Origin: Bradyrhizobium sp. AZCC 1719
GTDB taxonomy: Bacteria > Pseudomonadota > Alphaproteobacteria > Rhizobiales > Xanthobacteraceae
Direction: 5' to 3'
Assembly (NCBI RefSeq): GCF_036924525.1
Contig: NZ_JAZHRU010000001.1
Span: 434,001-498,000, forward strand
Length of the DNA stretch: 64,000 nt
Shown here in pieces: positions 3,347 through 48,472 of the stretch. Numbering within the stretch: position 1 is the first letter of the stretch; each line of letters begins with the position of its first letter. The notes beneath the pieces are model-generated. The model made no database searches, had not been told where the DNA came from, and saw only the letters and a program-made list of their open reading frames with translations. The translations under genes and the position numbers were made by a program.

Positions 3347-4177
3347 TTAACCTTTGCGGATCAGCGGCGGCGGCGCGTAGACCTCCGGGCTGGTGAGATC
3401 CCAGCGCACGCCGAGCTTCACGTCATGCGAGGTGATGTCCTTGATCTTGATCGACGATGCACCTGAGATGCTGTTGTCGAACGCACGGTAGTTGCCGGGG
3501 GCTGCATCGCCGAGATTCATGTAGCTGTAGGCGAGTTCGACGGTAAACGCTGGACTGACCTTATAGGCAAGACCGGCATGGGCCGCCCAGGCCAAATTCC
3601 ACTTCCCATTGTCGGCGAAGTAAGTAACGCTGTTGGACAGGACGCCTGCGGTGTAGCGAACGCCGTCGTCGCGGAAGCCGCTGAGCTTGTTGTACGACCC
3701 ACCGACACCGGCGCCGATGAATGGCGTGATGCACCACCAGGTTCCGAGGTCGACATAGGCATTCGCCATGACAACCCACTCGGATTTGCTGCCGGTGTAG
3801 TTGTTGACTCCGATGTCGTCGGGCCCAAGGACGACTGTGTCCGAGCCGTGGAGGTTGGCGCGACCGCGGTACTGGCCGATCACGTCCGCACGGAACCAGT
3901 TGTTGAAGCGATAGCCGACACCGAGGTCGAACAGCATCGAGCTGTCGAAGCCGAGACCCACGGTCGTCGTTGGGAAGGTCTGCGCAGTCAAGCTGTCGAT
4001 TCTCTTCGCGCTCTGATTGGTCATGCCGATATCGCCGCGCAGATACCAGCCGCCGAAATCCTCGACCACCGGGGCCGGAGCATAAGGAGGCGGCGCAATC
4101 GCCATGTCGGCGGCAAACGCCGCCTGGGACAATAAAGTGGCCGCACCGGCGGCAATGAAAGACTTAACGCTACGCAT
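3347..4177 (-). CDS. Outer-membrane protein of the Omp25/RopB type
   Basis: This 276-residue protein has a signal peptide ending AAFA at about residue 22. A Pro-rich spacer (APPPYAPAPVV) follows, then the family hallmark 'FGGWYLRGDIGM'. The body consists of amphipathic strands ('WFRADVIGQYRGRANL', 'WCITPFIGAGVGGSYN'). The C-terminus ends ..PPPLIRKG rather than in Phe, a variation seen in some rhizobial members. It is likely a structural porin-like surface protein. An intrinsic terminator follows, so it probably forms its own transcript. Confidence 0.85.
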   Translation of the reverse strand: MRSVKSFIAAGAATLLSQAAFAADMAIAPPPYAPAPVVEDFGGWYLRGDIGMTNQSAKRIDSLTAQTFPTTTVGLGFDSSMLFDLGVGYRFNNWFRADVIGQYRGRANLHGSDTVVLGPDDIGVNNYTGSKSEWVVMANAYVDLGTWWCITPFIGAGVGGSYNKLSGFRDDGVRYTAGVLSNSVTYFADNGKWNLAWAAHAGLAYKVSPAFTVELAYSYMNLGDAAPGNYRAFDNSISGASSIKIKDITSHDVKLGVRWDLTSPEVYAPPPLIRKG

Positions 4178-5868: not shown

Positions 5869-7215
5869 TTATGCCGCCGCGGCGTGGCCGAGCGCGTTGA
5901 CGATCTGGTCGACGACTTCCTCGACCAGGAGGCGGTCGTCGCCCTCGCCCATCACGCGGATCACAGGCTCGGTGCCGGACGAACGGACCAGCAGCCGGCC
6001 GTGGCCGTTGAGGCGATTCTCGCCGTCCAAGATCGCCGATTTCACCTCGGCGTGGTCAAGCGGCTTGCCGGAGCGATAGCGCACGTTCTTCAAGATCTGC
6101 GGCAGCGGGTCGAAGCGATGGCAGACCTCCGACACCGGGCGGCGAAGCTTTTGAACCACGGCCAGCACCTGCAGCGCGGCGACGAATCCGTCGCCGGTCG
6201 TGGCGTAGTCGGAGAGAATGATATGACCTGAGGGTTCGCCGCCGAGATTGTAGCCCTGCGCGAGCATCTGCTCGAGCACGTAGCGGTCGCCGACCGGGGT
6301 ACGCACCATGCCGAGCCCCTGCCCTTCAAGGAAGCGCTCGAGGCCGAGGTTGGACATTACGGTGGTGACGATGCCGGGCTTGGCGAGCCGGCCCTCTTCA
6401 TTCCAGCTCTGCGCGATCACCGCGAGCAACTGGTCGCCGTCGACGACGTGGCCGCGCTCGTCGACCAGGATGACGCGATCGGCGTCGCCGTCGAGCGCAA
6501 TGCCGATATCGGCGCGCATCTCGCGCACCTTCTTGGCAAGCGCCTCCGGTGAGGTCGAGCCGCATTCCTTGTTGATGTTGAAACCGTCAGGCTCGACGCC
6601 GATCGCGATGACGTCTGCGCCCAATTCCCACAGCGCTTCCGGCACCACCTTGTAGGCCGCGCCGTGCGCGCAATCGATCACGACGCGCAGGCCGTCGAGC
6701 GAGAGCTCGCGCGGCAACGTGCGCTTGGCGAATTCGATATAGCGGTCGTGGACGCCGTCGATGCGGCGGGCGCGCCCGAGGCTGGCACTCTGCGCCAAGC
6801 GACGGTCGATCGGCTCGTCGAGCAGTTGCTCGATCTGCTTCTCGACATCGTCGGACAGTTTGAAGCCCTGCGGACCGAACAGCTTGATGCCGTTGTCCTC
6901 GAACAGATTGTGCGACGCTGAAATCATCACGCCGAGATCGGCGCGCATCGACTTGGTCAGCATCGCGACCGCCGGCGTCGGCATCGGGCCGAGCAGCAGC
7001 ACGTCCATGCCGACCGAGGTAAATCCGGCCACCATGGCGTATTCGATCATGTAGCCGGAGAGACGCGTATCCTTGCCGATGACGACGCGGTGGCGGTGAT
7101 CGCCACGCTGAAACACCAGACCGGCCGCCTGCCCCACCTTGAGCGCGAGCTCCGGCGTGATCAGACCATTGGCGCGGCCCCGAATTCCGTCGGTACCGAA
7201 ATATTTGCGGCTCAT
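5869..7215 (-). CDS. glmM: Phosphoglucosamine mutase
   Basis: This 448-residue cytoplasmic enzyme interconverts glucosamine-6-phosphate and glucosamine-1-phosphate for UDP-GlcNAc, hence peptidoglycan and LPS. Seen in order are the N-terminal '[11 protein letters not shown]', the phosphoserine loop 'GVMISASHN', the metal loop 'DGDADR', the substrate loop 'GGEPSGHII' and the phosphate-binding '[12 protein letters not shown]'. The length is normal. The ATG at 7215 has a GGGGG-type ribosome site; a start five codons earlier is less likely. All key residues are present. Confidence 0.97.
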
Positions 7216-9017: not shown

Positions 9018-9644
9018 TCACATCGGTGGCGTGATGCCGTCGCGGCCGACATTGACGCGGTTGGCTTCCAACATGCCGTCGTCCTTCTTCACCGCGCCGA
9101 AGATGATGATCTTCGCGCCCGGCTTCAGTTCGGACTTGTCGCCGGCGACGAAGGTGACAACAGGCGTATCCGGCGGCACCACGACTTTCTTTTCGCCGTC
9201 CTTGTATTTGACCAAAATATTCTGCCCGTCGGTGCCCTTCACCGTCTGGGCGACGGTGGCGTTGGTCATGGTCGAGTTCGGGCGCTGATCCCACGGCCGA
9301 AAACCTTCGGCCGCACCGCGCTGGTTCTCCGGGAAGATATGCACCGCGACCGCCTTCTGGGTGCCGTCCGGCTCCGGCATGCCGGTGACGCCGATGTAGG
9401 AGCCTTCCTTGATCTCGGACAGCGCGGTCTTCGCCACGCCGAACACGGCGACATTGTCGGTGAGACGGACCTTCATGTCGGCGCCCTCGCGCGACTTGAT
9501 CGACAGCATGGACCCGTCGACGGCCTCAATGGTGCCGCGAATGCGCACCGTCGGCGACTGCTGTGCCCAGACCACCGATCCGAGCAGGATGACGCAGATC
9601 AGCGAGGCCGCGAGCACGCGCGGCCATGAAGAACATTTCGGCAT
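9018..9644 (-). CDS. Secreted DUF5666-like protein
   Basis: This 208-residue protein has a signal peptide (LAASLICVILLGSVVWAQQ). A small OB-like beta segment follows, 'IRGTIEAVDGSMLSIKSREGADMKVRL', then a mixed region and a second similar beta segment 'VKGTDGQNILVKYKDGEKKVVVPPDTPVV'. The ATG at 9644 has a GGAGGA site. It is probably periplasmic. Similar proteins are sometimes named metal-transport permeases, but there is only one hydrophobic segment here, the signal peptide, so that name does not fit. Confidence 0.65.
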   Translation of the reverse strand: MPKCSSWPRVLAASLICVILLGSVVWAQQSPTVRIRGTIEAVDGSMLSIKSREGADMKVRLTDNVAVFGVAKTALSEIKEGSYIGVTGMPEPDGTQKAVAVHIFPENQRGAAEGFRPWDQRPNSTMTNATVAQTVKGTDGQNILVKYKDGEKKVVVPPDTPVVTFVAGDKSELKPGAKIIIFGAVKKDDGMLEANRVNVGRDGITPPM

Positions 9645-9770
9645 GGTAGTCCTCCCAAAGTTGGATCGGCGCCCAATCCAACGCCAACACCGGGAGGAAA
9701 GGCCTATTCCACGGCTGGCGCCCCGCCTACCGATCATCAAGGCGTGATCGGGTTCAGGCGCGCCGGCCGA

Positions 9771-41182: not shown

Positions 41183-41424
41183 CTAGGTGCCGCGGTGAAA
41201 AAGGCCGTGATCCCGACTATGGAGGGGTGTCATGCGCAAGCATCGCGATCTCGAAAACCTCTCCAGCTTTTCGCATCACGCGTAAGCGGCGGAAGTCCTT
41301 CCCTTCAGAAACCCATGTCAAGCGCAGACGGCGTATCGTCCATGGCGAGGTCGAGCGGATTGAAAAATCCGGCCGCAATGACCTATGTAGGTGCAGTTTT
41401 CTGTCCAAGGTACGTGATCAATGA
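41176..41424 (+). CDS. Short ORF with a SEC-C-like end
   Basis: The frame reads basic Arg/Lys-rich sequence and then '[17 protein letters not shown]', which resembles the SEC-C zinc motif (GRNDxCxCGS) but lacks the final Cys/His pair. The stop overlaps the next gene's start as ATGA. The start is unclear; GTG codons at 41176 and about 41227 are possible. It may be a relic of a SEC-C protein, or a real short coupling peptide. Confidence 0.35.
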
Positions 41425-42845
41425 CGCTCATTGTGGCTGGTGTCACTTCAGGAACAGGCTGGATCATATCGGACACCCTCATAACGGGCGGCACTATCCA
41501 ACTTCGGGATCGAGAATATCAGGTCAAATGTCTTCCGGCGCAGGATAGGCAGTCCTTGGTTGCTTTTTCAGGCGACGCACACAACGGAGTTCAGCTGATT
41601 GAACAAGCGGCGGGCATGCCAAGTGGTCAGAATACCATCCGTATGTTGTGTCAGGCACAGACCGAAAATCCGAATGTAGATTTTCTTTATATGTACTTGG
41701 ACGCGAGTACTCCGCGTCTTTTTAAGATATCCGGAGGCAATGCTCACGAAGTGGCCGCCACGTACATAGGCGAGAAGGATGCCTTCGAACAATTTCAACG
41801 CATTCGCCACGCGACCGAAATCGACCCCGTTCCAAAGTCTGTGGAGCATTTCATGTTTGGCAGCAAAGCTCCTAGGGAAATCCCCGAGGGCGTCTCTGAA
41901 GCTACGGTCTCGATGCTCCGGTTGTTTTTGCAGCGCGCTGAACGCGATGTTGGAGGATGGGCAGTACCCTATGTTCTCGTCGGCGAAGGCGCTTATTTGT
42001 GCGGTTATGCGCACGCGGTTTCTGATCCGATCTTGGATAAGGTTGGTCCGGGTGCGGTTGTCCCTCACGGCACCGCGGAAGCCGGGGGGTACGGTTTGGC
42101 CGTGACTGAGGTTCAGGACCCCGAGGGTATGGTGATCTACCGCCGGCAATCTCCAGGCGGGTTGATTTTGATCCGAGAAGGGCAAGGTTACAGAACAGTT
42201 CGAATTGAGGGCGCACCGGCAGAGTTTCGCGCCAAAGCTTCTAAACTGCTTGAGAAACCGGTCGATATATTCTTTAGCGACGACACCCCTGTTGGACTGC
42301 CTGAAAGCATAACCATTCTCCGTGATGAGCATGGTCAGCCCGCTGCAGCAATTGCAAAACGGGGCAACAATCTGTCGTTCTCGGTCTTAAACGTCGCAAC
42401 AGCGTTCAAAAGTAAGGCGAAGCTTGATTTTGATGGTGGGCAAAAAGGGCTAGAACCGTTGACTGTACAGAACCTAAGTCTAACGCTCGCTGACGATAAG
42501 AGCCACGTGCATTTGCAGTTGCTGAACGATGGCAAAGTCGTTGGGGAATCGACATTAAATGCAGATGAAATGGATGCCGTGATCGCCGGCCTCGGACAAT
42601 TTCGCGCTGCCCTAAACCAACAGGTGCGCCCAGAGCCGGACCAAAGCGGGGGAGCGCAGGAATTCCTTGTGGTCGACCCGGCTTGGCGTACTATTCAATC
42701 TCCCCATGCAGAAATCGACGGCATTGTAATGCGCCTGAGGCACATCGGGCTCGGGTGGGTTTCTTTCCTTTTCCCGCGCCATGAAGGTCGTGCATTAGGT
42801 AGGTGGCTTACGGAAACCTGTGTCGAGCCCGCTAAGCCGGTTTAG
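41421..42845 (+). CDS. Putative Ntn-hydrolase (proteasome/HslV-like fold) with unknown C-terminal domain
   Basis: This 474-residue protein begins [20 protein letters not shown]. If Met is removed, Thr2 becomes the N-terminal nucleophile. Asp18 and Lys36 then fall where proteasome/HslV subunits have D17 and K33 (here K35 by that numbering). '[19 protein letters not shown]' matches the beta-turn-helix after the Lys. '[18 protein letters not shown]...[13 protein letters not shown]' matches the inner strands and the GSGG-like turn. Residues ~215-474 form a separate beta-rich region ending '[25 protein letters not shown]'. Base composition is lower in GC than its neighbours, which suggests transfer. 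Function is unknown, and the fold call is inference from spacing and pattern. Confidence 0.55.
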
Positions 42846-42997: not shown

Positions 42998-43262
42998 TCA
43001 TCTCTTCTTCCACCCACCTCGATGTCCCGGCGCGCCGCCGCTCGATCGCGGCGCCGGTCCGAACTCTGGCCCGGACTGCCGCGAGTCCGTCGGCTGGAAG
43101 ATTTTGCAGCCGCTGCCGATCTCCGGCTTGCGCAGTTTGGCGCCGCTGGGGCGGTGGGGCAAGGATTCCGGGCCGTGCATTTCGTCGAGATGGGGTTTGT
43201 GGACTTTGGAGGTGGAAGGACCGCCGCTGCGGCTCACCCGCCCCCGACCGCCTGCGGCGGTC
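42998..43262 (-). pseudogene. Displaced 3' end of uvrB
   Basis: About 263 bases align without gaps to the intact uvrB tail at 45512-45777. I count about 21 mismatches. In frame, 17 are synonymous and about four change residues (Ser/Cys, Pro/Leu, Met/Val, Gly/Arg). The product would end '[13 protein letters not shown]' and TGA, where the intact gene uses TAG. The frame to the right is unrelated sequence, so this is only a tail. It is in direct orientation with uvrB. Confidence 0.85.
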
Positions 43263-43696
43263 GACAGCGCGGAAGCTCGATGCCGCCGATCAGCCGGCGA
43301 TCTTCCGAATATCTCGCAAGCCGGATATTTGGGTGCGCTCCCGAGCAGAGCGCCTACTCGCGCGATCGAAGCGGTCGAAAGGTTGGCGTGCTCCTGCTCG
43401 CCAACCGCGCCGAATTTTCGCACGAAATTGCGCGCTATCGTGCACTTCCAGCATTGTCGCGCATTGCAGGTGCCGGCAGGTGATCGCGAGGAAGGGCGCC
43501 GGCGGCGGAGGGACGGGTTGAGCGAACATTGAAGCCGATATTCACCGCGTCACCGCTTCTCGGGAGCTGACCGCGTTCCGGCGCGTTGGTTCCGCATCGG
43601 GCCGAGCCGGTCCGGCGCCCCGCCTGATGACGAAATGCCGCCAAATAGCAATGCTTCCGTCGGCCGATCTCGAAATGTATCAAGTTAAGGTCCGCT
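43263..43696. other. Intergenic stretch beside the uvrB tail copy
   Basis: No supported gene. The frames here lack ribosome sites and conserved sequence. The left edge at 43263 is the junction where similarity to uvrB stops abruptly. The last 20 bases carry AAGG, the likely ribosome site of the channel gene. Confidence 0.5.
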
Positions 43697-44914
43697 ATGA
43701 GTTCGTTCGAGGAATCTCCGGCAGTCCCGCACCGCGGCGCATATGACGGGCTGGATTTCGCTCCGGAATCCGTTAGCCGGTTAGAGCGTCGAGATCGGGC
43801 CTCGCAAGGCGAACCAGCGATTTCGTCACTTCGACCGGTCCTGCTATGCCTTCTGTCGCTGGCGGTGCTTGCACTCGGCTGCAACGCCGTTCGAGCTCAA
43901 AGCACAGTCCCTGACAGAGAATTGGTAGTGGCGACCAAGGAGGCCCCGCCCTTCGCGATGAAGCAGCCGGATGGGAGCTGGGGCGGTATCAGCATCGAGC
44001 TCTGGGAAAAGATCGCTGCCGGAGCACATCTGCGCTTTCGTTTGGTTGAGACCCAGAGCGTGCAGGACCTGGTGAACGGCGTCGCGAATGGCACTTTCGA
44101 CGCCGGTGTCGCAGCAGTAACTGTGACCGCCGGGCGTGCACGCAGTGCCGACTTTACTCAACCTTTCTACAACACCGGACTTGGGATTGCGGTGCCGATC
44201 CATGAAAACGTCTGGGTCTCGATCGGGCGGGCGCTGCTTTCGTTCGGCTTTTTTCAGGCTGTCGCCGTGCTGCTATGTTTTGCGATGGCAGTCGGATTCC
44301 TCATTTGGTTGCTGGAACGCCGGAAAACGGAACATTTCGGCGGAGGGGCCAAGGGACTCGGCTCCAGCTTCTGGTGGTCGACCATTGCCATGACACAGGC
44401 GGGAGCCGCCCAGAATGCGCCGACAACTCTCCCCGGGCGCATCGTCGCAATCGGGTGGATGATCGCTTCCATCATCGCCATAGCCGTCTTCACCGCAGGG
44501 ATCACCTCCACCCTCACGCGCCGAGGGCTTGAAGGCGCCGTTCACGGCTTCAACGACTTGCGATCCGTGCGCGTCGGCGCCGTCGCGAACTCTACGACAA
44601 CCGACTACCTCACTCGTCAGCAACTTTCCTTTCGAGCATTTCCAGACCCTCAAAGCGGCCTATCTGCATTGAGCCGCGGCGCGATCGATGCCTTCGTCCA
44701 TGACAAACCGCTTCTGACCTGGATCGTTCGGAAGGATTTCTCGGCCTCGGTTCGTGTTGTCGACACCAGCTTCAGCAGCGAGAGCTATGCAATCGTGCTG
44801 CCGAAGGGCAGTACCTTGCGGCCCATGCTCGATCTCGCCGTGCTCGATCAGATCGAAAGCGATTGGTGGCGACAAACGCTGTTCCAAACCCTTGGAAATG
44901 CACGATCTCCCTAG
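43697..44914 (+). CDS. Ionotropic glutamate receptor-like channel (GluR0 type)
   Basis: This 405-residue protein has a signal peptide ending about residue 67 (LAVLALGCNAVRA). Lobe S1 of a periplasmic binding domain follows ('ELVVATKEAPPFAMKQPDGSWGGISIELWEKI', ~74-170), then TM1 (~184-206), a pore loop 'SSFWWSTIAMTQAGAAQN' (~223-240) and TM2 (~247-272). Lobe S2 ends the protein ('VRVGAVANSTTTDYL..', ~290-395). The order S1-TM1-P-TM2-S2 is that of bacterial glutamate-gated channels. The pore lacks the K+-channel TVGYG. The ligand is probably an amino acid, binding from the periplasm. Confidence 0.83.
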   Translation: MSSFEESPAVPHRGAYDGLDFAPESVSRLERRDRASQGEPAISSLRPVLLCLLSLAVLALGCNAVRAQSTVPDRELVVATKEAPPFAMKQPDGSWGGISIELWEKIAAGAHLRFRLVETQSVQDLVNGVANGTFDAGVAAVTVTAGRARSADFTQPFYNTGLGIAVPIHENVWVSIGRALLSFGFFQAVAVLLCFAMAVGFLIWLLERRKTEHFGGGAKGLGSSFWWSTIAMTQAGAAQNAPTTLPGRIVAIGWMIASIIAIAVFTAGITSTLTRRGLEGAVHGFNDLRSVRVGAVANSTTTDYLTRQQLSFRAFPDPQSGLSALSRGAIDAFVHDKPLLTWIVRKDFSASVRVVDTSFSSESYAIVLPKGSTLRPMLDLAVLDQIESDWWRQTLFQTLGNARSP

Positions 44915-45511: not shown

Positions 45512-48472
45512 CTACCGCTTCTTCCACCCACCCCGGTGCCCCGGCGCGCCGCCGCTCGACCGCGGCGCTGGGCCGAACTCGGGCCCCGACTGCCGCGAAT
45601 CCGTGGGCTGGAAGATTTTGCTGCCACTGCCGATCTCCGGCTTGCGCGGTTTGGCGCCGCTGGGGCGGTGGGGCAAGGATTCCGGGCCGTGCATTTCGTC
45701 TAAGTGGGGTTTGTGGACTTTGGAGGTGGAAGGACCGCCGCTGCGGCTCATCCCGCCCCGACCGCCTGCGGCGGTCGACCCTCCCCCTACAGCGGAGGGT
45801 GAAGACGCGCCGCGCTTCTTCATCGCTGATGTCGGCAGGTTGGCGGCCTCGCCGTACTTCTTCGTCCCGGCATAGGCGCCGGCCTTGCCTTGCACGGCGC
45901 GCTGTTTTGCGGTGGGGTCGTCGACCACGGCCATTTCCGTCGCGCGCAGGCGCTTGACTTCGTCGCGGAGCCTGGCGGCTTCCTCGAAGTTCAGATCGGC
46001 GGCGGCCTCGCGCATGCGGGTTTCGAGGTCGTTCAGGACGGCCTCGAAATTGTGGCCGATCGAGATGACGTCGTCCGCCATGCCGCCGTCGCCGATCTCG
46101 ACCAGCACGTGATCGCGCTCGTAGACGGAGTTGAGGATGTCGCCGATCGATTTCTTCACGCTCTCCGGCGTGATGCCGTTGGCAGTGTTGTATTCGACCT
46201 GCTTTTCGCGACGGCGATTGGTTTCGGCGATGGCGCGCTCCATCGAGCCGGTCATCTGGTCGGCGTAGAGGATCACCTTGCCGTCGACGTTGCGCGCGGC
46301 GCGGCCGATGGTCTGGATCAGCGAGGTCTCGCTGCGCAAAAAGCCTTCCTTGTCGGCGTCGAGGATCGCGACCAGCGCGCATTCGGGAATGTCGAGGCCT
46401 TCGCGCAAGAGGTTGATGCCGACCAGCGCGTCGAACGCGCCGAGACGCAAATCCCGGATGATCTCGATGCGCTCGATGGTGTCGATATCAGAGTGCATGT
46501 AGCGCACACGAATGCCCTGCTCGTGCAGGTACTCGGTGAGGTCTTCCGCCATGCGCTTTGTGAGTACCGTGATCAGCGAGCGATAACCCGCGGCAGCGGT
46601 CGCGCGGACCTCGCCGACGAGATCGTCGACCTGCGTGCGCGCCGGACGAATGTCGACCGGCGGATCGATCAAGCCCGTGGGACGGATCACCTGCTCGACG
46701 AACACGCCGCCGCTTTCGTTCAGCTCCCAGCCGCCGGGCGTCGCCGACACCGCGACCGATTGCGGGCGCATCATGTCCCATTCCTCGAACCGCAGCGGGC
46801 GGTTGTCCATGCAGGAGGGCAGCCTAAAACCGTATTCGGCGAGCGTCGCCTTGCGGCGGAAATCGCCGCGGAACATGCCGCCGATCTGCGGCACGGTGAC
46901 GTGGCTTTCGTCGGCGAACACCAGCGCATTGTCGGGCACGTATTCGAACAGCGTCGGCGGCGGCTCGCCGGGGCGGCGCCCGGTGAGGTAGCGCGAATAG
47001 TTCTCGATGCCGGCGCAGCTTCCGGTCGCCTCCATCATTTCGAGGTCGAAGGTGGTGCGCTGCTCCAGCCGCTGCGCTTCCAAGAGGCGGCCCTGGTTGT
47101 TGAGCTCGTCGAGCCGCAGCTTCAGCTCGCTCTTGATCGACTTGATCGCCTGCACCAGCGTCGGCCGCGGCGTCACATAGTGCGAGTTGGCGTAGATCTT
47201 GATGAATTCGAGATCGTCCTGCTTGTGGCCGGTGAGCGGATCGAACTCCTCGATATTCTCGACGGTGTCGCCGAACAGGTTCACGCGCCAGGCGCGGTCC
47301 TCATAGTGCGCCGGGAAGATGTCGATGACGTCGCCTCGGACGCGAAACGTGCCGCGGGTGAAATCGGCCTGCGTGCGCTTGTACTGCAGCGCGACGAGGT
47401 CGGCGATCAACTGCCGCTGGTCGATGCGCTCGCCCTTCTTCAGCGCAAAGGTCATCGCGGTGTAGGTCTCGACCGAGCCGATACCGTAGATGCACGACAC
47501 GGACGCCACGATGATGACGTCGTCGCGCTCCAGCAGCGCGCGCGTCGCCGAATGGCGCATGCGGTCGATCTGCTCGTTGATGGACGAGTCCTTCTCGATG
47601 TAGGTGTCGGTGCGCGGGACGTAAGCCTCGGGCTGGTAGTAGTCGTAGTAGGAGACGAAATACTCGACCGCGTTGTCGGGAAAAAAGTTCTTGAACTCGC
47701 CATAGAGCTGCGCGGCCAGCGTCTTGTTCGGCGCGAGAATGAGGGCCGGGCGCTGCGTCGCCTCGATCACCTTGGCCATGGTGTAGGTCTTGCCCGAGCC
47801 GGTGACGCCGAGCAGCACCTGGGTGCGGTCGTTGCGGCTGATGCCTTCGACCAGTTCGGCGATCGCGGTCGGCTGGTCGCCTTTCGGCTGGTATTCGGAT
47901 TTGATCTCGAAGCGCACGCCGCCTTCGGATTTTTCGGGCCGCGGCGGCCGGTGCGGCGTCCAGACTTTGAGCTGGCCGTTATCGCCGCGAAATTCGGGAC
48001 GGCCGTCGCGGATCAGGCTTTCCAGCGCATCGGCGGTGGCTTTGACGCCGAGCGCTTCCATCTTGTTGCGCGGTGGACGGGCAAGGGATTCCTCGTCGTC
48101 TTCCGCGGTCGGCAGGCCGAGCTGGCGCGCGAGTTCCGGGTCGAGCGTCGGGATCGTGGCCGCGGTGCCGTAGTTGGCTTGGGGGGATTCGTTGAGGCCT
48201 TGCCTGGCATCGCGTTTCGCGACGTCATCGCTCGTCCCTTTGGTCGAGGCTCGCGCGCGATGCGCGGCGGCCTCGCCGCCGGCGCGGCGGTCCCAGGAAT
48301 TGTCCGGCGGCGGCTGCAGGCCGGTGCCCGAGCCCATGCCGGCGTCGCCGCGGTTGAGCGCGGGATTGAGCAGTTCCGCGAGCGCCGGTCCGATTGGTTG
48401 CACCTCGGGCCGGTGCGCCTTGGATTTCGGGGTTTTGCCTGATTTTCGGGGAGCGTCCGGTTTCTTCGCCAT
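45512..48472 (-). CDS. uvrB: UvrABC excision nuclease subunit B, extended form
   Basis: This 986-residue damage-recognition helicase of nucleotide excision repair is far longer than the ~670 of E. coli. An N-terminal extension of about 185 residues is hydrophilic and disordered-looking. The core has Walker A 'GVTGSGKT' (222-229), beta-hairpin '[16 protein letters not shown]', DEAD-like 'VFADESHV' and 'TIGRAARN'. The UVR domain '[29 protein letters not shown]' binds UvrC. A Gly/Arg/Ser-rich tail of ~110 residues ends 'GHRGGWKKR'. A diverged copy of this tail lies 2.5 kb away. Confidence 0.97.

Follow-up and report, generated by a model that had tools for sequence, protein, structure and literature searches.

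The proteasome fold is usually regarded as a regulated barrel. An open reading frame (ORF) of Bradyrhizobium sp. AZCC 1719, for which the original prediction proposed a stand-alone proteasome/HslV-like Ntn hydrolase, raises the question of whether such an enzyme may act on its own, and on what. We analysed it together with its surroundings in the window, that is, the whole stretch of 64,000 nucleotides (C1:434001-498000).

The gene and its coding signal

The ORF (41421..42845, + strand) has an ATG start and contains 474 codons and a stop. It encodes a proteasome-like Ntn hydrolase with a C-terminal domain, and is supported by the ORF list, homologs and codon-position bias. The translation contains, in this order, MTLIVAG, SDTLITGG, REYQVK, FSGDAHNG and GEKDAFEQF; SGDAHNG spans residues 50-56 and GEKDAFEQF begins at residue 117. 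Thus, Thr2, Asp18, Lys36 and both motifs noted originally are all in place. The proposed deviation in GC content is seen as well: the GC content of the ORF is 0.54 and its GC3 is 0.54, compared to a GC3 of ~0.8 in several large neighbouring ORFs. Similar GC3 values (0.53-0.55) were found again in the four homologous loci that were read (L003-L006).

Comparison with the B. manausense copy (L003) yields 0.256, 0.180 and 0.609 differences per site at codon positions 1, 2 and 3, respectively, the third-position differences being about three times the second-position ones. This codon-position bias indicates purifying selection on the gene; dS is saturated for L003, L005 and L006. The ORF signal goes beyond chance, since 120 proteins match it and Thr/Ser2, Asp18, Lys36 and Gly51 rank with its best-conserved positions.

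Conservation of the putative catalytic residues

The alignment of the long family comprises 93 of 121 sequences, the excluded 28 being 266-410 aa long. Thr2 (41424..41426, +), the predicted N-terminal nucleophile once Met1 is removed, is T in 72 and S in 8 rows, with 13 gaps, hence T or S in 80/80 rows with a letter. Asp18 (41472..41474, +), the counterpart of proteasome Asp17, is D in 89/89 rows with a letter (4 gaps), and Lys36 (41526..41528, +), the counterpart of proteasome Lys33, is K in 90/90 (3 gaps). Loss of these residues among homologs, which would have spoken against the original prediction, is therefore not seen in any long-family row with a letter. Gly51 (41571..41573, +), likely the counterpart of the oxyanion-hole Gly47, ends strand 45-51 of the predicted model and is conserved in 90 of 91 rows with a letter (E in one row, gaps in two).

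Position 2 is the second residue of the predicted protein in 69 of the 80 rows that reach it (start codon residue M in 66, V in 3). The other 11 rows are extended upstream by 1-65 predicted residues; in each of them position 1 is occupied by M, V or L and could be the true start. In many rows of the fold search, Thr2 aligns with residue 1 of beta subunits; Lys36 falls on the Lys of HslV in an hhalign alignment that is not significant. Judging by these conserved positions, the protein is very likely an active Thr enzyme.

Fold of the N-terminal part

Residues 2-200 (41424..42020, +) form a proteasome beta-type core. The suggested fold check gave a confident predicted model, and all 50 rows listed by each of two fold searches are proteasome entries, with 10-18% identity in the listed alignments. 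On the strength of this model, residues 2-200 almost certainly fold like a 20S beta subunit, and together with the conserved Thr/Ser2, Asp18 and Lys36 this upholds the assignment to proteasome/HslV-like Ntn hydrolases. The Ntn clan includes amidases of small-molecule type, and nothing observed on substrates favours peptides, so that the protein could instead be an amidohydrolase of the Ntn fold with small molecules rather than proteins as substrates; the uniform proteasome hits among the rows listed make this rather improbable.

The model contains helices at residues 53-65, 70-82, 119-129 and 156-171 and no helix ahead of residue 53. These four helices are in the places of H1-H4, their naming resting on order. 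Such an arrangement would be compatible with a compartmental protease that assembles into rings as BPH does, the C-terminal domain then lying outside the ring. Against a ring stand the segment 130-155, which includes strand 142-148 and is inserted between the third and fourth helices, and the ~270 further C-terminal residues; in PMI proteins, insertions between these helices could keep double rings from forming, according to the published description (PMC8665760). We consider the ring unlikely and favour an enzyme acting on its own.

Sequence profiles alone gave no link of the long family to HslV or Anbu (hhalign E 0.07 and 0.25, respectively), and the HslV-Anbu control pair did little better (E 0.03-0.05). 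PDB profile searches returned nothing relevant, and PF00227 (Proteasome subunit) had no match at E<=10. The 474-aa protein (P0001) had no Pfam match above the cut-off and no NCBIfam or PADLOC match; PHROGs yielded three weak rows only, with E of at least 0.08. The domain architecture carries no name in any of these four libraries.

Superfamily and modular organization

The protein search found 120 relatives at E<=0.01 among 7999 candidates scored. They are unnamed or hypothetical, except P0119, which is annotated as a ClpP subunit. A divergent alignment of 21 rows, mostly ~20% identical to the first one, has just four invariant columns: Asp18, Lys36 and, within the GEKDAF and RDVGG regions, two Gly. 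All 20 rows that reach position 2 have T or S there. The wider superfamily profile search found 167 proteins. Residues were counted in the 120 of them that were listed, plus P0122 and P0001: position 2 is T in 90, S in 25 and I in 1, with 6 gaps (T/S in 115/116 letters); the Asp column is D in 113, E in 4 and T in 1, with 4 gaps (113/118); and the Lys column is K in 118 and C in 1, with 3 gaps (118/119). The sole C belongs to P0001 itself, whose Lys slipped by one column.

The protein is modular, consisting of a ~290-residue Ntn module and a ~130-residue C-terminal domain, each of which is also found alone. The Ntn module (residues 1 to ~290; 41421..42290, +) is matched by stand-alone proteins of ~290 aa (P0122, P0123 and their relatives); hhalign of the long-family N-terminal part against 100 members of this superfamily gives E 4.1e-43 over 266 columns. 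The C-terminal domain (residues 335-474; 42423..42842, +) also occurs as proteins of ~120-135 aa. As a candidate fold for it, the PUR/PC4/Whirly type, which binds single-stranded nucleic acid and has a beta-beta-beta-beta-alpha repeat, was considered.

Several other arrangements were observed. In P0119 (551 aa, from a single metagenome contig), the Ntn module is fused to a ClpP-like domain; by eye, another residue seems to stand where this domain normally has its catalytic Ser. P0183 (377 aa) has weak TPR matches after the Ntn module, possibly an exchanged C-terminus. As a stand-alone gene, the C-terminal domain lies beside an ispE-like gene (named by eye) in L055, L057 and L058.

Distribution and genomic locus

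The long-family profile matches 8 of 265 genomes of the genus. The copy is full-length in two of them (AZCC 1719 itself and G075), G001 has a 340-aa copy without the C-terminal domain, and the other five have either the N-terminal or the C-terminal part only. In the order sample (397 genomes) and the class sample (385 genomes), a full-length copy was found only in AZCC 1719. The wider profile detects a member in 17 of 257 genus genomes. The gene is rare, patchy and apparently mobile.

In B. acaciae (L004, 10001-11023), the 340-aa copy stops short of the C-terminal domain. It is preceded, at a distance of 72 bp, by a 301-aa gene of unknown type, with a recombinase-type gene beyond.

The patchy distribution and the short B. 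acaciae copy, which lacks the C-terminal domain, could point to a decaying pseudo-enzyme on mobile DNA. Conserved catalytic residues across relatives and the codon-position bias speak against decay, which is very improbable.

The gene resides in a slot that has a HAD-type gene on one side and the uvrB 3' end on the other (both identified by eye). Shortly after the gene comes a copy of the uvrB 3' end (43004..43265, no strand assigned), which is 93% identical over 262 bp to the uvrB 3' end itself (45518..45779, no strand assigned). The left conserved flank extends to ~41134 and the right uvrB 3'-end copy starts at 43004; these boundaries fit a single-gene insertion of ~1.9 kb. Four relatives were fetched (G093, G162, G080, G010), and no exact empty site was found. 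In three of them the arrangement is the same but the cargo differs: a DpnI-type gene in G093, a regulator (LysR) and a TctC gene in G162, and a PD-Lambda-5 gene plus a DpnI-like ORF (by eye only) in G080. In G010 the flanks are inverted. This supports the proposed accessory setting of the gene. Inspection by eye of the interval from 41 to 45 kb revealed no integrase.

Extra copies of the uvrB 3' end were observed in G162 (L060) at about 3866-3958, 6157-6436 and 9445-9712. Both in G162 and in the window, such copies mark the borders of consecutive cargo modules, which looks as though elements had accumulated at the end of uvrB. The same slot of the window contains a gene at 43697-44914 (+) with matches to PF00497 (SBP_bac_3) and PF00060 (ligand-gated ion channel), a bacterial glutamate-receptor-type channel.

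The question of AAA+ partners

The gene was proposed to stand alone, without the usual neighbours of such proteases. Within C1:434001-498000, no match to AAA or AAA_2 (PF00004, PF07724) was found; the nearest one is at C1:846968, ~370 kb away. The HslV and Anbu of this genome are located elsewhere, the Anbu-type gene being named by eye. The HslV-type match at C1:1708609 has an AAA/AAA_2 match at C1:1710433, ~1.3 kb away. An adjacent HslU-type AAA+ partner, a feature of HslV, is thus absent from the locus studied here, in agreement with the proposed lack of the usual neighbours, and the protein probably works without a dedicated AAA+ partner.

A possible role in defence

Some neighbourhoods are suggestive of an anti-phage or abortive-infection effector, in which the Ntn hydrolase would be inactive until infection is sensed and would then cleave or modify a host or phage protein. 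In L006, 12 bp separate the start of the gene from an integrase-like ORF ahead of it (PF00589, 25.4 bits vs the 27.1 cut-off), and the gene faces an AbiU/AIPR gene on its other side. A remote Ntn relative in L087 lies ~30 bp after a gene with a HEPN_RiboL-PSP match (26.6 bits vs the 28.4 cut-off). RES-Xre genes adjoin a relative in L089, a HicB-like antitoxin gene is near the copy in L005, and the slot described above is occupied by the DpnI-type enzyme in G093 and the PD-Lambda-5 gene in G080. The slot of G162, on the other hand, contains the LysR and TctC genes instead, and no PADLOC model matches the 474-aa protein.

The proposed tally of defence genes near homologs was also made. The 88 neighbours of 15 relatives, 13 of which belong to the wider superfamily, gave matches to 14 PADLOC models, none of them in more than one member, and several of these were judged likely housekeeping look-alikes. 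In the control loci, 87 genes matched 76 models (first 25 listed), the counts being those of models rather than distinct proteins. The tally around relatives is not above the control loci, and the suggested defence origin was not established. A defence role is possible, and the specific effector mechanism seems unlikely.

In both L086 and L087, a 336-aa gene is followed after ~30 bp by a remote Ntn relative; the HEPN scan covers the L087 copy.

Proposed function

We propose, with a probability of roughly 60%, that the protein belongs to the proteasome-like family and works on its own as a Thr-dependent enzyme, either a peptidase or a connectase-like ligase, whose C-terminal domain serves as a recognition module. 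Residues 2-200 would adopt the 20S beta-subunit fold of the confident predicted model. Methionine aminopeptidase would cut off Met1, as the Met-Thr start suggests, and expose Thr2. Conservation and register suggest that Thr2, together with Lys36 and Asp18, could form an acyl-enzyme with a substrate that is a peptide or an amide, and that Gly51 would be part of the oxyanion hole. Hydrolysis might follow, or connectase-like transfer to another amine. The C-terminal domain, also found alone and absent or exchanged in relatives, may recruit the substrate or a partner; taken separately, its role as a recognition module is plausible, at slightly below even odds. No dedicated unfoldase would be involved, and the gene, judging by its context, may spread as single-gene accessory cargo.

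We further speculate, as an improbable extension, that Thr enzymes derived from the proteasome might form a mobile family, each member acting alone on one specific protein by cleavage or ligation and swapping C-terminal recognition modules (this domain, ClpP-like, TPR or none), as accessory immune or competition effectors in soil Proteobacteria.

The analysis adds a superfamily of small, apparently unpartnered proteasome relatives whose catalytic signature is intact and whose C-termini differ. Should they prove active, they would provide a direct test of the proteasome fold working outside rings, as connectase does, and a possible source of new ligases or site-specific proteases.

Comparison with known proteasome-like proteins

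The protein resembles the 20S beta subunit and HslV (PF00227) in the core fold, the Thr1-Asp17-Lys33 order and the Gly47 counterpart. In HslV, the Thr is exposed by Met removal, as predicted here. It differs from them in its 10-18% identity (listed fold alignments), the lack of a PF00227 match, ~270 extra C-terminal residues and the absence of a nearby AAA/AAA_2 gene. Anbu is similar in the Thr N-terminus and the fold, and the Ntn-only family of P0122 aligns with Anbu by hhalign at E 0.0012, Thr on Thr; in contrast, the long family reaches E 0.25 only, and the genome has a separate Anbu-type gene (by eye).

The original prediction also claimed a new Ntn family. The family indeed has no name in Pfam, NCBIfam, PADLOC or PHROGs; its novelty is qualified by the 22 new proteasome-like homologs of Fuchs et al. 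2021 (PMC8665760), here compared by description only. According to that paper, the homologs share a site of Thr1/Ser1, Asp17, Lys33 and Gly47 and have no gene context hinting at function. RPC and DPH, by the same account, are likewise divergent, present in Proteobacteria and without telling gene context, and RPC also has its own C-terminal domain matching no known structure. Connectase, an archaeal monomeric protein ligase, is described there as a proteasome-like monomer, some variants of which have an extra C-terminal domain (PMC8665760).

On the predicted model, identity with RPC and with connectase was rejected. RPC (sequence cluster of WP_140207863), compared by its description (PMC8665760), lacks helix H2, whereas the model has helix 70-82. 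Connectase, as described there, lacks H1 and H2 and carries two inserted helices between S3 and S4; in the model, H1 and H2 are present and no helix precedes residue 53. The protein may or may not fall into the clusters of DPH (WP_074989469.1) or DAH (WP_085249540.1).

By the predicted model and conservation, the protein has the features described for the proteasome-like family (PMC8665760): the shared beta-sheet core, the catalytic Thr1/Ser1-Asp17-Lys33 and, as in most members, the oxyanion Gly47 and the flanking helices H1-H4.
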